DNA of 64,000 bases from contig NZ_JAVDYJ010000001.1 of the NCBI RefSeq assembly GCF_031458395.1, forward strand, positions 2,232,001 to 2,296,000, in the 5' to 3' direction. The translations under genes and the position numbers were made by a program. Source of the stretch: Enteractinococcus fodinae. GTDB lineage: Bacteria > Actinomycetota > Actinomycetes > Actinomycetales > Micrococcaceae. The notes beneath the pieces were generated by a model. It was not told where the DNA came from and did not search any database. It saw only the letters and a program-made list of their open reading frames with translations. This document shows positions 1 to 40,684 of the stretch, in pieces. The first letter of the stretch is position 1, and every line of letters begins with the position of its first letter.

Positions 1-110
1 TCGAAGGCGAAGTCACCGACGACGTCTTGGATCGTGCCAGAACCTTGGCAGCAGAATTATTCGCTAACCCCTCGACCGAATATATTGCCAACGTCGAGGT
101 GGCCAAATGA
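1..110 (+). CDS. purS: PurS C-terminus (partial), FGAM synthase small subunit
   Basis: The first 110 bases read open in frame 3 and end in TGA, giving about 35 residues that end in ANVEVAK. The piece fits the C-terminal helix and strand of PurS, the small subunit that bridges PurQ and PurL in the formylglycinamidine ribonucleotide synthase of purine synthesis. The start lies outside the window. The stop overlaps the purQ start as ATGA, so the genes are probably translationally coupled. The assignment rests mainly on the purS-purQ-purL gene order, because the visible piece is short. Confidence 0.8.
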   Translation, partial: EGEVTDDVLDRARTLAAELFANPSTEYIANVEVAK

Positions 111-838
111 GCGAACCCAACATTGGCGTCGTAATGTTCGACGCGGCAACCGATGCGGCCTCGGTCATTCGAGCCGTCGAGCTGGCCGGTGGCACACCGG
201 TCACCTTGCACCCCAAGACAACGGTCGCCCCGGACCTGGCCGACCTCTCTGTGGTCATTCTGCCGGGCGGATTTTCCTACGGTGACTATCTCCGGGCCGG
301 CGCCCTGGCGGCGACGCAGCCGATCATGCGGGTCCTGGCGGAAGCCGTCGAAGCCGAAGAGATCACCGTTATCGGATTGGGCAATGGCTTCCAAGTACTG
401 ACTGAAGCAGGCCTGCTACCGGGTGCGTTTGTCGCCAACGCCACCCCCCGATACCACCACACCGAAGTGGACTTCATTATCGCCAATAACAGCTCGGCCA
501 TGACCAACGCCTATGAACTCGGCCAACAAGTTCGCCTCGTCCAAAAAGGCGCCTACGCCCAGTACACCGCGACAGCCCAAGAGCTGGAAGCGCTCGAAGA
601 ACGAGGCAATGTACTCATCCGCGCCAAAGACTCTGCAACCGGTTCCGATATTGCGGGAATTAGCTCGGCTGACGGCCTGGTGTTGGGACTGATGGCAAGC
701 CCAGAGTATGCGATCGAAGAAGGCTTCGGAACAGACCATCCAGACGGCCCCGGTATGGGTGTGGATGGTCAAGGATTATTTGTCTCAGTTGTGCGTGCTG
801 CCGGTGCGATCAACGGTGAAGGAGTTGTCGGTGAGTAA
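107..838 (+). CDS. purQ: PurQ-like glutamine amidotransferase subunit lacking catalytic Cys and His
   Basis: This 243-residue protein aligns end to end with PurQ, the class I glutaminase subunit of FGAM synthase, which hydrolyses glutamine and channels ammonia to PurL. PGGFSYGDYLRAGA (residues 53-66) and NGFQVLTEAGLLPG (93-106) are clear family signatures. The nucleophile motif GICNGF, however, reads GLGNGF, with Gly92 (codon GGC at 380-382) where Cys is expected. The motif PHPE reads ASPE, with Ser198 in place of the catalytic His; only Glu200 of the triad remains. Other conserved stretches, such as the HGEG region, are also altered. The frame is intact and overlaps both neighbours, so this is a full-length gene and not a decayed one. 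It may be a structural subunit of an ammonia-dependent complex, or an intact PurQ may exist elsewhere. Confidence 0.9.
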   Translation: MSEPNIGVVMFDAATDAASVIRAVELAGGTPVTLHPKTTVAPDLADLSVVILPGGFSYGDYLRAGALAATQPIMRVLAEAVEAEEITVIGLGNGFQVLTEAGLLPGAFVANATPRYHHTEVDFIIANNSSAMTNAYELGQQVRLVQKGAYAQYTATAQELEALEERGNVLIRAKDSATGSDIAGISSADGLVLGLMASPEYAIEEGFGTDHPDGPGMGVDGQGLFVSVVRAAGAINGEGVVGE

Positions 839-3131
839 AGAACAACTAGATACGGTCGCCCACGCCGACCAGACCCCCGAGGCGGAGCAGTCATGGGCAG
901 CGCTGGGGTTGAACGCTGAGGAATATCAGCGCATCCGCGATATTCTGGGACGCCGCCCAACCGAAGCGGAACTGGCGATGTATTCCTCCATGTGGTCGGA
1001 GCACACGTCCTATAAATCCTCTAAAGTTCACCTGCGCCAGTTCGGCGAAAAAACCACCGACGAGATGCAGCGCAACATGCTGGTGGGCCTGGGCGAAAAC
1101 GCCGGCGTGGTGGATCTAGGTGACGGTTGGGCCGTGACCTTCAAGGTCGAATCCCACAACTCACCCTCCTTCTTGGAACCCTTCCAGGGTGCCGCCACCG
1201 GGATCGGTGGCGTGGTGCGCGACATCATCTCGATGGGCGCTCGCCCGGTCGCGGTGCTCGACTCGCTGCGGGTCGGCCACGAAGACCACGAAGACACCGC
1301 TCGCATCGTCAAAGGGGCGGTGGCCGGTGTCGGGCACTACGGCAACATCCTAGGGGTGCCCAATATTGCCGGGGAGATCTCCTTTGACTCGGTATTCCAG
1401 GGCAACCCGCTGGTCAACGCCGGAGCTGTCGGAGTCTTGCGCCACGAAGACTTGCGCTTGGCGCAGGCCTCGGGCACCGGCAACCGGATCGTCCTCTTCG
1501 GTGCTCGTACCGGTGGCGATGGCATCGGTGGCGCGGCGATGAGCTCCGCGGCCTTCGATGATGAAGGCGCGGCCAACACCCCGGTCGTCCAAGCCGGCGA
1601 CCCGCTGCAAGAAAACGTGATCATCGAAGCCACCCTGGAACTGTTTGCCAAGTCATTGGTCGAAGGGATCCAGGACTTGGGTGCCGCCGGGATTGCCTGT
1701 GCTACCAGTGAGCTCGCCGCCGGTGGTGACGGGGGCATGCACATCGAACTGACCCACGTCTTGTTGCGCGATGAAGGCCTGACCGCCGGGGACATTTTGA
1801 TGTCGGAATCTCAGGAACGCATGATGGCCGTGGTCACCCCGGACAATGCGGCCGCGTTTGAAGAGATCATGGCCAAATACGGGGTGGAGTACTCCTGGCT
1901 GGGTGAGGTCAACGACTCCGGCCGGTTGACAATTGACTGGAACGGCGAACGCATTGTCGATGTGGACCCCACGACCGTCGCAGACGGCGGACCGGTGTAC
2001 GACCGACCATATGCGCGCCCAGACTGGCAAGACACCGTACAAGCCGATACGTTCCGCGCCTCAACTGCTGCAGCTGACCTACCCCAGACCGGCGAAGACC
2101 TCAAGGCTGCCGTCATCGAACTGATGAGCTCAGCCAATATGGCCGATCGCTCCTGGATCACTTCCCAGACTGACACCTCGGTGGGTGGCAACACCCGCCA
2201 GGCCGCGCCAAACGACGCAGGCGTGGTCCGGGTCGATGAAGAAACCGGGATGGGCTTTGGGTTAGCCATCGACTGCAACTCCCGCTATGTCTACTTGGAC
2301 CCCTATCAGGGTTCGCAGCTGGCCGTGGCCGAGTCCTACCGCAACGTGGCCACCTCGGGAGCCACCCCAATGGGTATCTCCGACGGGTTGAACTTCGGCT
2401 CCCCCGAAGACCCCGGCGTGATGTGGCAGTTCGCTGAATCTACCCGCGGGATTGCCGATGCGTGCATGGAGCTGGGCGTCCCGGTCACCGGCGGCAACGT
2501 CTCGCTGTACAACCAGACGGTTGATACCCCGATTCACCCAACCCCGATGATCGTCACGCTGGGCCGCTACGACGATGTCGCCACCGCGGTCCCCTCGTGG
2601 CTGCACCCAGCCTTCGACGGATCAGCGATCTACCTGCTGGGCGAGACTTTCGATGAACTGGACGGCTCACAGTTTGCCCACCTGCGCGGTCACTTAGGTG
2701 GCGTGCCGCCAAGGGTTGACCTCGCCAAAGAGCGGCAACTGGCGGGTCTATTGTCCAACGCTTCACGCACTCACATGCTTGATGCAGCCCACGATCTTTC
2801 CGATGGTGGCCTGGCCGGTGCCCTAGCCGACATGGTACTCACCGCCGGGGTCGGTATGCGTATTAACCTCAACTACGTCACCGAACGCGACGGCATCGAC
2901 GCGTTCACCGCGCTGTTTTCGGAATCGCAGGGCCGCGCACTGGTGGCCGTCCCGCTATCCGAAGAAGTCCGCTTCCGCGGAATCACCGAATCCCGCGGCT
3001 ACCCATCGTTGCGCATCGGTGTTGTCGACGCTAACTCGGCGGCCCTGGAAATCCAGGACCTCTTCACCGCGAGCATTGATGAACTACGCGAAGGCTGGGC
3101 CACGGCTCTGCCACGCCGTTTCGGACACTAA
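831..3131 (+). CDS. purL: Phosphoribosylformylglycinamidine synthase subunit PurL
   Basis: PurL is the ATP-dependent synthetase subunit of FGAM synthase, converting FGAR and ammonia to FGAM in purine synthesis. The 766-residue product has the length of the small actinobacterial PurL. It carries the N-terminal SEHTSYKS motif, the ESHNSPSF and GGVVRDI substrate/ATP-loop motifs and the internally repeated AIRS-like halves (GGNVSLYN in the second half). I chose the GTG at 831 because GGAG lies 6 nt upstream and it overlaps the purQ stop; longer frames would run into purQ. Its catalytic motifs look normal, in contrast to PurQ. A strong hairpin follows the stop. Confidence 0.95.
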   Translation: MSKEQLDTVAHADQTPEAEQSWAALGLNAEEYQRIRDILGRRPTEAELAMYSSMWSEHTSYKSSKVHLRQFGEKTTDEMQRNMLVGLGENAGVVDLGDGWAVTFKVESHNSPSFLEPFQGAATGIGGVVRDIISMGARPVAVLDSLRVGHEDHEDTARIVKGAVAGVGHYGNILGVPNIAGEISFDSVFQGNPLVNAGAVGVLRHEDLRLAQASGTGNRIVLFGARTGGDGIGGAAMSSAAFDDEGAANTPVVQAGDPLQENVIIEATLELFAKSLVEGIQDLGAAGIACATSELAAGGDGGMHIELTHVLLRDEGLTAGDILMSESQERMMAVVTPDNAAAFEEIMAKYGVEYSWLGEVNDSGRLTIDWNGERIVDVDPTTVADGGPVYDRPYARPDWQDTVQADTFRASTAAADLPQTGEDLKAAVIELMSSANMADRSWITSQTDTSVGGNTRQAAPNDAGVVRVDEETGMGFGLAIDCNSRYVYLDPYQGSQLAVAESYRNVATSGATPMGISDGLNFGSPEDPGVMWQFAESTRGIADACMELGVPVTGGNVSLYNQTVDTPIHPTPMIVTLGRYDDVATAVPSWLHPAFDGSAIYLLGETFDELDGSQFAHLRGHLGGVPPRVDLAKERQLAGLLSNASRTHMLDAAHDLSDGGLAGALADMVLTAGVGMRINLNYVTERDGIDAFTALFSESQGRALVAVPLSEEVRFRGITESRGYPSLRIGVVDANSAALEIQDLFTASIDELREGWATALPRRFGH

Positions 3132-37323: not shown

Positions 37324-37626
37324 ATGTCCGACCTGACTCGGGATCAGATTCGACACTTGTCCCAATTAGCTCACCTCAATCTCACCGACGAAGAGTTAGA
37401 TCGTGTCTCCGATGAGCTCGACCAGATCGTGGACTCCGTGGCCCGCGTTCAAGAAGCTGCGTCCGAGGATATCGAAGCCACTTCACACCCGATTGCGCTG
37501 ACCAATGTCTTCCGCGCCGATGTGGTTCGTGGGGTGCTCAGCCAAGAAGAAGCACTCTCCGGCGCCCCCGAGGCCGAAACCGGCCGGTTCAAAGTGCCCG
37601 CAATTTTGGATGAGGATGATCGATGA
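37324..37626 (+). CDS. gatC: Asp-tRNA(Asn)/Glu-tRNA(Gln) amidotransferase subunit C
   Basis: GatC (100 residues) is the small chaperone subunit of GatCAB, which converts misacylated Glu-tRNA(Gln) and Asp-tRNA(Asn). The LTRDQIRHLSQLAHLNLTDEELD start and the C-terminal GRFKVPAILDED are typical. AAAGGAG precedes the ATG. Its stop overlaps gatA as ATGA. First gene of a complete gatCAB operon. Confidence 0.95.
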   Translation: MSDLTRDQIRHLSQLAHLNLTDEELDRVSDELDQIVDSVARVQEAASEDIEATSHPIALTNVFRADVVRGVLSQEEALSGAPEAETGRFKVPAILDEDDR

Positions 37627-39176
37627 ACCACCACGAAATGATTCGGCTCACGGCCTTACAAATGGCCGAAGAGCTGCGGAAGAAAACCTTTTCCTCAGTA
37701 GAACTGACCCGGGCGCACTTTGAACGTATTTATGAGATCGATGGGACCGCAGAGGCCGGGATCCACGCGTATTTACACCTCAATGAAGACGAAGCCTACG
37801 CGGTGGCCGCTGAAGTCGATGCGATTCGCGCAGCAGGCGGCGCCGAAGCCGAGCAGCTCCACCCCTATGCCGGGGTCCCGATTGCTATCAAAGACAATAT
37901 TGTGACGATCGGGCAGCCCACGACCGCGGCGTCGAAAATGCTCGAAGGCTGGATGAGCCCGTATGACGCCACAGTCATCCGCACGATCCGCGCAGCGAAA
38001 CTGCCCATCTTGGGCAAAAACAACATGGATGAGTTCGCGATGGGCTCGACCACCGAATACTCGGCCTTCGGTGTGACTCGGAATCCCTGGGATCTTAACC
38101 GCGCCCCGGGCGGTTCGGGTGGCGGATCGGCCGCCGCGGTCGCAGCGTTTATGGCCCCGTGGGCCCTGGGCAGCGATACCGGCGGATCGATTCGGGAACC
38201 CGCCGCGTTCACCGGCACGGTCGGCACCAAACCCACCTATGGGTCGGTGTCACGCTACGGGTTGATTGCCATGGCCTCGTCCTTTGACCAGATTGGTCCG
38301 CATGCCCGCACCACCGCCGACGCCGCAGCGCTACACCAACTTATTGCCGGGCACGACCCCAAGGATGCCACCTCGTTACGCACCTCCTGGGACGGTCTGC
38401 TGGATGCCGCTCAAAACCAAGACTTGCGGGGCATGCGCATCGGGGTGCTCGATGAGCTCCAGGGCCCCGGGTTTACCGACGAAATCGACCGTCAGTTCGA
38501 AACCGTCCTGGACATGCTGCGCGATGCGGGTGCGATCGTGAGCATCGTGGAGTGCCCGAACATCAAATATGCCCTGCCCGCCTATTACCTGGTGGTCCCC
38601 TCGGAAGCCTCATCAAATCTGGCTCGCTTCGACGGGCTGCGCTACGGCAACCGGGTCGTCCCGCACGAAGGTGCCACCGCGGCCGAGGTCATGGCCGCCA
38701 GCCGCGAAGCAGGATTCGGCGATGAAGTGAAGCGTCGCATCATTCTGGGCACCTACGCGCTGTCAGCCGGGTATGTGGATGCCTACTACAGTTCGGCCCA
38801 GCGCGTGCGCACGCTGGTACAACAGGACCTGAATAAGGCGTTTGAAAAGGTCGATGTGATGATCGGGCCGACCACGCCAACGGTTGCGGTCCCAATGGGT
38901 GAGCAAGTCTCCGACCCGGTGTCGATGTATCTAGATGATGTGGTCACGACCCCGGCGAACCTGGCGGGCATCCCGGCGATTTCTATCCCGGGTGGTACCG
39001 CTGACCACGGCATGCCCGTGGGCATGCATATTCAAGGCCCAGCCAAGGCCGATGAGGTGGTCTACCGGGTGGCCGCAGGATTGGAACGGCTCATCGAAGA
39101 AGCCACCGGCGTGCCGTTTTATGACCGAGCCCCGGAACTCACCGCCGCCGTGACCATGGAAGGAGAACGCCTGTGA
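37623..39176 (+). CDS. gatA: Asp-tRNA(Asn)/Glu-tRNA(Gln) amidotransferase subunit A
   Basis: GatA (517 residues) is the glutaminase subunit, with the amidase fold. The Ser-cisSer-Lys triad is complete: Lys90 in PIAIKDN, cis-Ser165 in APGGSGGGSA and Ser189 in DTGGSIREP. The motif GGSGGGS has Gly for the second Ser of the common GGSSGGS, but that position is not the catalytic one. The gene overlaps both gatC and gatB by 4 nt. Confidence 0.95.
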   Translation: MNHHEMIRLTALQMAEELRKKTFSSVELTRAHFERIYEIDGTAEAGIHAYLHLNEDEAYAVAAEVDAIRAAGGAEAEQLHPYAGVPIAIKDNIVTIGQPTTAASKMLEGWMSPYDATVIRTIRAAKLPILGKNNMDEFAMGSTTEYSAFGVTRNPWDLNRAPGGSGGGSAAAVAAFMAPWALGSDTGGSIREPAAFTGTVGTKPTYGSVSRYGLIAMASSFDQIGPHARTTADAAALHQLIAGHDPKDATSLRTSWDGLLDAAQNQDLRGMRIGVLDELQGPGFTDEIDRQFETVLDMLRDAGAIVSIVECPNIKYALPAYYLVVPSEASSNLARFDGLRYGNRVVPHEGATAAEVMAASREAGFGDEVKRRIILGTYALSAGYVDAYYSSAQRVRTLVQQDLNKAFEKVDVMIGPTTPTVAVPMGEQVSDPVSMYLDDVVTTPANLAGIPAISIPGGTADHGMPVGMHIQGPAKADEVVYRVAAGLERLIEEATGVPFYDRAPELTAAVTMEGERL

Positions 39177-40684
39177 CCACCCACTCCCCTGCCCTCCCCA
39201 GTTTTGAAGAAACCGTCGCACAGTACGATCCGGTCTTGGGATTTGAGGTCCACGTCGAACTCAATACCGCCAGCAAGATTTTCTCGTCGGCACCCAATGC
39301 GTTCGGGGATGAGCCCAACACCAATCTCACCGAAGTCGACCTGGGCATGCCCGGTGCGCTACCGACCATGAACTACGGGGCGATCGAAGCCGCGATCAAG
39401 CTCGGTCTGGCATTGAACTGTTCAATTGCCGAGACCTGTCGGTTTGCGCGCAAACACTATTTCTATCCGGATGTTCCCAAGAACTTTCAGATCTCCCAGT
39501 ACGACGAGCCCATCGCCTTTGACGGGTGGGTTGATGTTGAGCTCGACGACGGCGAACTGTTCCGCGTGGAAATCGAACGCGCCCACCTGGAAGAAGATGC
39601 CGGCAAACTCACCCACGTGGGCACATCCGGTCGGATCCACGCGGCATCGTATGCGCTGGTGGACTATAACCGCGCCGGGGTGCCCCTGATCGAGATTGTG
39701 TCCAAACCCATCGAAGGTGCCGGCGACCGAGCCCCCGAACTTGCCCGCGCCTACGTGCGCACGATTCGTGACATTGTGCGTGCCCTGGATATCTCGGATG
39801 CGCATATGGAGCGCGGCAACCTGCGCTGCGACGCTAACGTATCCTTGCAGCCCAAGGGCGCGACCGAATTCGGCACTCGCACCGAGACCAAAAATGTGAA
39901 CTCGATGCGCACCGTGGCCCAGGCCGTCGAATACGAGATGCGTCGCCAGGCCGCGGTCTTGACCGCCGGGGACCAGGTGAACCAAGAGACTCGGCACTGG
40001 CAAGAAGACACCCGCACCACGTCCCCGGGGCGCAGCAAATCCGATGCCGATGACTACCGGTACTTCCGCGAACCCGACCTCGTCCCGATCGAAGTCGACC
40101 AAGCCTGGCTCGACCGGCTGCGCGCTGAACTACCCGAGCTGCCAGATCAGCGTCGTCGACGGCTCAAAGCCGAATGGGGCACCTCAGATGCGACCTTCCG
40201 CGATCTCGTCCACGCCGGGGCCCTCGACGTCATCGAAGCCACCGTGGATGCCGGAGCAACCCCCGAGGCCGCCCGGAAATGGTGGATGGGTGAACTCGCC
40301 CGGCTGGCACATGCGCGCGGCACCTCGCTGGAGGGGCTTGGGGTCACACCCGAAGATGTGGTCGAGGTGGAGTCCTTGGTCGCCGAAGATCTCATCAACG
40401 ATAAGATCGCCCGGCAACTGTTGGGGTATGTGGCAGACGGCGAAGGCGCCCCGCGAGAAATCGTCGCGGCACGGGCACTCGCGGTGGTCTCCGACGACGA
40501 GGTCCTCGGCCAGGCTGTAGATGCGGCCATCGCCGAACATCCGGACGCCGTCGACAAGATCACCAACGGCAAGCTCCAAGCCATCGGCGCGCTCATCGGA
40601 CCGGTCATGCGGGCCACGGGCGGTCAAGCCGATACGGGGCGTGTACGTGAACTGATCATGCACAAACTCGGGGTCGCGGAGTAA
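39173..40684 (+). CDS. gatB: Asp-tRNA(Asn)/Glu-tRNA(Gln) amidotransferase subunit B
   Basis: GatB (503 residues) is the kinase/tRNA-binding subunit that activates the tRNA-bound acid and receives ammonia from GatA. GFEVHVELNTASKIF, then RFARKHYFYPDVPKNFQISQYDEP and the HLEEDAGK and DYNRAGVPLIEIV motifs are characteristic; the C-terminal YqeY-like tail is complete. The start is a GTG overlapping the gatA stop. It closes the operon. Confidence 0.95.
   Translation: MTTHSPALPSFEETVAQYDPVLGFEVHVELNTASKIFSSAPNAFGDEPNTNLTEVDLGMPGALPTMNYGAIEAAIKLGLALNCSIAETCRFARKHYFYPDVPKNFQISQYDEPIAFDGWVDVELDDGELFRVEIERAHLEEDAGKLTHVGTSGRIHAASYALVDYNRAGVPLIEIVSKPIEGAGDRAPELARAYVRTIRDIVRALDISDAHMERGNLRCDANVSLQPKGATEFGTRTETKNVNSMRTVAQAVEYEMRRQAAVLTAGDQVNQETRHWQEDTRTTSPGRSKSDADDYRYFREPDLVPIEVDQAWLDRLRAELPELPDQRRRRLKAEWGTSDATFRDLVHAGALDVIEATVDAGATPEAARKWWMGELARLAHARGTSLEGLGVTPEDVVEVESLVAEDLINDKIARQLLGYVADGEGAPREIVAARALAVVSDDEVLGQAVDAAIAEHPDAVDKITNGKLQAIGALIGPVMRATGGQADTGRVRELIMHKLGVAE

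Follow-up and report, generated by a model that had tools for sequence, protein, structure and literature searches.

The purQ gene at the start of the window, the 64,000-nucleotide stretch of the Enteractinococcus fodinae genome analysed here, encodes a protein that is a PurQ orthologue by descent and, judged by its motifs, not a glutaminase, because its triad reads Gly-Ser-Glu in place of Cys-His-Glu. We consider it probable that this protein is retained as a pseudo-glutaminase subunit of an ammonia-fed FGAM synthase, within a genus-wide switch to free ammonia. As far as motifs can tell, PurQ is the visible end of a loss of glutaminase sites that extends across the genus.

The gene (107..838, plus strand), which translation, family profiles, alignments and a fold model mark as full length and glutaminase-dead by motif, occupies the place expected of purQ, between the 3′ end of purS (1..109, plus strand; an 82-aa frame whose start lies upstream of the window) and purL (831..3131, plus strand), which encodes the small PurL synthase subunit. 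The frame is intact, its start overlaps the purS stop (TGA, 107–109) and its end overlaps the purL start (GTG, 831), in agreement with the full-length, tightly coupled gene described in the earlier note. PurS, with no NCBIfam match at E 1e-20, was identified from its place before purQ and its resemblance to the purS genes of other loci. The 243-aa PurQ carries GLGNGF at the Cys site and LMASPEY at the His site. Both substitutions named in the earlier note are thereby confirmed: codon 92 is GGC (380..382, plus strand), a Gly at the expected nucleophilic Cys, and codon 198 is AGC (698..700, plus strand), a Ser at the expected catalytic His, and alignment to Thermotoga maritima PurQ (3d54 chain D) places Gly over Cys and Ser over His. 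PF13507 (GATase_5) matches above its cut-off (68 bits against 27); NF002957 (169.8 against 212) and TIGR01737 (137.6 against 177.8) stay below their equivalog thresholds and are the best families for the protein despite these scores. A ColabFold model built from 35 sequences (mean pLDDT 84.8) has 3d54_D as its top PDB match (E 5.3e-20), which suggests that the PurQ fold is retained. The protein therefore shares with PurQ of the PurSQL complexes of T. maritima (3d54) and Bacillus subtilis its operon place, length, fold, GGFSYGDYLR loop and Glu (Glu200), and is unlike them in the absence of Cys and His and in its sub-threshold equivalog scores.

The change is a trait of the genus and, so far as motifs show, part of a genome-wide pattern. 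Gly stands at the Cys site in 8/8 genus genomes read (G073 partially), a count that leaves out the ninth genome, G149 (71% complete), and the His site holds Ser in six and Asn in one of the seven genomes in which it is readable. Aligning relatives, as the earlier note had proposed, thus identifies a clade trait, and a sequencing error at the Cys and His codons is ruled out because the Cys is missing from all eight genomes and the His from all seven readable ones. The suggestion that an intact PurQ exists elsewhere is contradicted for the host, whose genome (2.93 Mb, single contig, 99% complete) holds one PF13507 match and no second PurQ; the same profile matches in 14/14 control genomes. A PurQ match is present in 149/149 genomes of the family, and identity to the window PurQ is about 75–85% for eight genus members and about 38–47% over long matches for other family genomes. 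Outside the genus, Cys/His/Glu is kept in 101/102 PurQ loci (loci, not genomes, at least one genome being present twice), and a further outside set keeps Cys and His in 21/21 loci, 20 of them new. The one remaining locus of the 102, L073 from a Mycolicibacterium MAG, has Tyr for the catalytic Cys with His and Glu kept, and could be a MAG error.

Loss of the motif is accompanied by wider change in a protein that is still under constraint. Among positions at least 95% invariant in the outgroups, 21/84 are lost in all seven genus sequences used for PurQ, compared with 17/214 in the covered part of PurL and 3/23 in PurS, and the PurQ active-site loops beyond Cys and His are also altered. The stem branch of the genus measures 1.41 for PurQ, four times that of PurL (0.34), and 0.38 for PurS (trees of 32, 28 and 32 sequences for PurQ, PurL and PurS, respectively). 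Within the genus, median dN/dS is 0.099 for PurQ, 0.048 for PurL and 0.076 for PurS (21 pairs each; dS is high, so the ratios are rough), and purQ, changed as it is, remains under purifying selection. Medians for the dead glutaminase domains as a group span 0.099–0.133, as compared with 0.081 for HisH (4 usable pairs of 21), 0.035 for PurF and 0.032 for the GuaA synthetase domain, the last with 91% mean identity within the genus. PabB (0.105) and the CarA N-terminal domain (0.149) show that a live domain can evolve as fast as a dead one or faster. The purL gene, called normal in the earlier note, deserves that description in passing its family cut-offs (NF002290, 914.9 bits against 648; TIGR01736, 782 bits against 525.75) and departs from it at the 17 outgroup-invariant positions where every genus member differs, in most cases by a similar residue.

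Profile searches for glutamine amidotransferases in nine genus genomes extend the pattern well beyond PurQ. In GuaA the Cys is replaced by Ser or Gly and the HPE motif is absent (9/9 genomes); in an alignment to 5tw7 the Cys column holds Ser, the His column Asp and the Glu column Ala. CarA reads GIGLGHQ and YYPE in all eight genomes with a full gene, with Gly over Cys and Tyr over His of the E. coli protein; the ninth, a C-terminal fragment, also reads YYPE, and human CPS1 entries are among the matches of the genus protein. The PabA domain of PabAB, read in six of the nine genomes, has Gly for Cys and DPA for HPE (ELA in G140) in every case, and both AsnB proteins found start Met-Ser-Ala with no Cys upstream in frame. 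Other enzymes are spared: Cys and HPE are kept in HisH (7/7 genomes read), and the Cys is kept in PurF (8/8) and in a GlxB-like protein (9/9). Together with a glutamine synthetase in 9/9 genomes, these indicate that glutamine is still made and used by some enzymes. A DNA pattern for Gly-type CarA matched 3/395 genomes across the family, namely the host and two frames antisense to other genes; it recovered only one of eight known genus CarA genes and is therefore too strict for its negative result to say much. The host genome also encodes an N-acetylglutaminylglutamine amidotransferase, an osmolyte gene, with its N-terminal Cys kept (L147:205-1971, minus strand; TIGR03104, 701.6 bits). A cluster at G000:C1:420036-426810 combines two glutamine-synthetase-like genes, an ammonium transporter, a GlxB-like class II GATase, GXGXG and Glu_synthase, and presumably resembles the N-methylglutamate pathway; in the host genome, the ammonium transporter gene adjoins the GlxB-like gene.

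For two further glutamine-dependent enzymes no match above cut-off was found. GlmS is above cut-off in 0/9 genus genomes and in 14/14 controls, and weak GlmS-like matches in three genus genomes were set aside as what, judged by eye from their sequences, look like SIS-domain regulators. PyrG gives no match above cut-off in 9/9 genus genomes with two models that are positive in 14/14 controls; five sub-threshold matches in the genus are all confined to the glutaminase end of the profile. In G063, a family member with PyrG, pyrG sits between recN and a gene that we take from its sequence to be NUDIX-like (neighbours other than RecN and PyrG being named in this way), and in all eight genus genomes with recN it is followed directly by that neighbour, the pyrG gap having closed. 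Across the family, PyrG is found in 131/149 genomes, and the 18 without it comprise eight genus members and ten others. These ten, defined by PF06418, include all four genomes of one genus (G011, G041, G065 and G088) together with G016, G029, G033, G068, G133 and G139, and most are at least 96% complete (G029, 82%). PurQ retains Cys and His in every one of these ten, so that PyrG can evidently disappear independently, and its absence was rejected as a mark of the glutaminase-loss pattern. CTP synthase matches at G104:C1:1744030-1744826 fall in two adjacent frames, possibly through a frameshift.

These observations are most readily accommodated if PurQ no longer hydrolyses glutamine and has been retained within PurSQL for a structural or allosteric role, while PurL aminates FGAR with free NH3 taken directly into the complex. 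In PurQ, GuaA, CarA, PabAB and AsnB, the glutaminase sites would have decayed where cellular ammonia was reliably high, since a steady supply would make glutamine no longer needed, and that ammonia may have come from alkaline, ammonia-rich habitats. The earlier note had offered three options, an FGAM synthase running on free ammonia, another glutaminase, and an intact PurQ elsewhere. We infer that ammonia is the substrate of PurL, and of the three options this is the best supported, because the same kind of loss recurs in GuaA, CarA, PabAB and AsnB and because, according to a review, external ammonia is a usable substrate for most glutamine amidotransferases, GMP synthetases among them (PMC10526850). 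The synthase part is conserved, as the scores and dN/dS of PurL indicate, and in the accessible text of another study a Cys-less PurF still uses ammonia (PMC3261824). Habitat as the cause of the losses would be a further step, and the link to ammonia-rich habitats is circumstantial, running through the likeness of one assembly, G140 (about 3.7 Mb in about 120 contigs): the genus likened to it grows at pH 7–11 and is chiefly of faecal and soil origin (PMC4966478). Against an ammonia-fed synthase as part of a genus-wide switch stand the spared Cys of HisH, PurF and the GlxB-like protein, the glutamine synthetase of all nine genomes, and the loss of PyrG, which is not specific to the pattern; it explains neither why those enzymes were spared nor the routes to CTP and glucosamine-6-phosphate in the genus. 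On a wider proposal we are evenly divided: that the genus, as a free-living bacterium, has replaced the channelled glutamine amide by free ammonia throughout primary metabolism, with dead glutaminase domains in the synthesis of purines (PurQ), GMP (GuaA), carbamoyl phosphate (CarA), folate (PabAB) and asparagine (AsnB), uses an ammonia-dependent substitute for GlmS, and makes CTP by an undescribed route free of CTP synthase.

Four other explanations bear on the same data. A separate glutaminase, for example a kept class I glutaminase-like protein, could dock on or feed the synthases so that glutamine stays the donor, and the host does keep candidates, namely an intact HisH, a Peptidase_C26/gamma-glutamyl-GABA-hydrolase-like protein and a PRK09065-like protein. 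We regard this as unlikely, since a single protein would need to supply five or more distinct synthases whose docking sites are still filled by the dead domains, GuaA and PabAB being fusions. The missing GlmS and PyrG invite the thought that members of the genus import their purines, pyrimidines and amino sugars, with these pathways eroding, and salvage is indeed the simplest account of both absences. Erosion fits poorly, however, with frames that are open in every genome read, with the low dN/dS of the dead domains, with the strong conservation of the synthase domains, GuaA synthetase above all, and with a PurF that is intact in 8/8 genomes, and we hold it to be quite improbable.

The retained Glu200, GGFSYGDYLR loop and fold of PurQ would also suit a site at which glutamine is still cleaved, through a rearranged mechanism that employs a different nucleophile. 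With nucleophile and His both gone, further active-site loops changed, and GuaA and PabAB also without Glu and carrying differing replacements, as in decay, this is very doubtful. Equally hard to credit is protection from toxins, in which Cys-less sites would resist azaserine, DON or acivicin, or avoid gamma-glutamylmethylamide from a methylamine pathway; the genus cluster with glutamine-synthetase-like, GlxB-like class II GATase, GXGXG and Glu_synthase genes, which presumably resembles the N-methylglutamate pathway, would speak for it. PurF and HisH are also targets of glutamine analogues, and both keep their Cys; the loss of the GlmS and PyrG genes would in addition be left unexplained.

In these pathways, to our knowledge, glutaminase and synthase are almost universally coupled by a channel for ammonia. 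Ammonia-fed amidotransferases whose glutaminase is dead are themselves a known kind: one report describes land-vertebrate CPS I, and CPS III of Oreochromis (Alcolapia), as keeping a Cys-less glutaminase domain while the synthase uses free ammonia, with vertebrate CPS I lacking the Cys and using free ammonia only (PMC7657897). PurQ has likewise lost the catalytic Cys and kept the domain, and ammonia use in the genus would be the counterpart; in animals, by contrast, one enzyme is involved, whereas the genus has several different amidotransferases so affected, including the CarA orthologue itself. Archaea offer a second likeness, in that the accessible text of a survey describes a Cys-less PurF′ proposed to be ammonia-dependent and a Thaumarchaeal PurQ with Asn for His; these are single genes, in contrast to a set of losses in one lineage, and the PurQ Cys is fully conserved in that survey (PMC3261824). 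No Cys-less PurQ is described in the available parts of two FGAM synthase papers (PMC10912719, PMC3815217), and the open-access literature searched yielded no account of losses in such a combination; within it, their spread over five or more enzymes of a single bacterial genus would be new. With several glutaminase sites lost and the dead domains under selection, the genus would form a natural set of separation-of-function variants, making directly testable the contribution of a glutaminase domain beyond its chemistry and the circumstances in which living cells can do with free in place of channelled ammonia. How such cells make CTP becomes a question of its own, CTP synthase being missing from the genus and from other sampled Micrococcaceae-type genomes.

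A comparable PurQ has probably arisen a second time. A DNA pattern for purQ with a non-T-initial codon at the Cys site, which passes over Ser (TCN), Tyr and other T-codons, was run across 396 genomes of the order, the host being the only genus member among them. It matched four: the host, G693, and G435 and G153, whose matches were discarded as not PurQ. The G693 protein, from another family (L302:1098-1790, minus strand), reads GIGNGFQ and ASPEN and is encoded beside a purL frame and a second frame that we take to be SAICAR-synthase-like. It passes both equivalog cut-offs (231.7 and 199.8 bits) and keeps most of the residues lost by the genus, and an independent, younger loss is therefore likely. 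One whole contig of G693 (555,810 bases, roughly a quarter of its genome) was compared with GuaA, CarA, HisH, PurF, AsnB, PabAB and PyrG; none of these turned up there, PurQ being the sole find.

The window carries another glutamine amidotransferase in gatA (37623..39176, plus strand; TIGR00132, 564.8 bits against a cut-off of 481.1), followed by gatB (39173..40684, plus strand; NF004013, 814 bits against 653). Compared with three solved GatA sequences, the protein keeps Lys and both Ser at the positions presumed catalytic from GatA residue numbering, and differs at neighbouring active-site residues, with GGSG for GGSS, IREP for IRQP and YGSVSR for YGRVSR. Identical changes occur in G093 (L336:33-1550), and thus in both genus copies found in the stretches compared.
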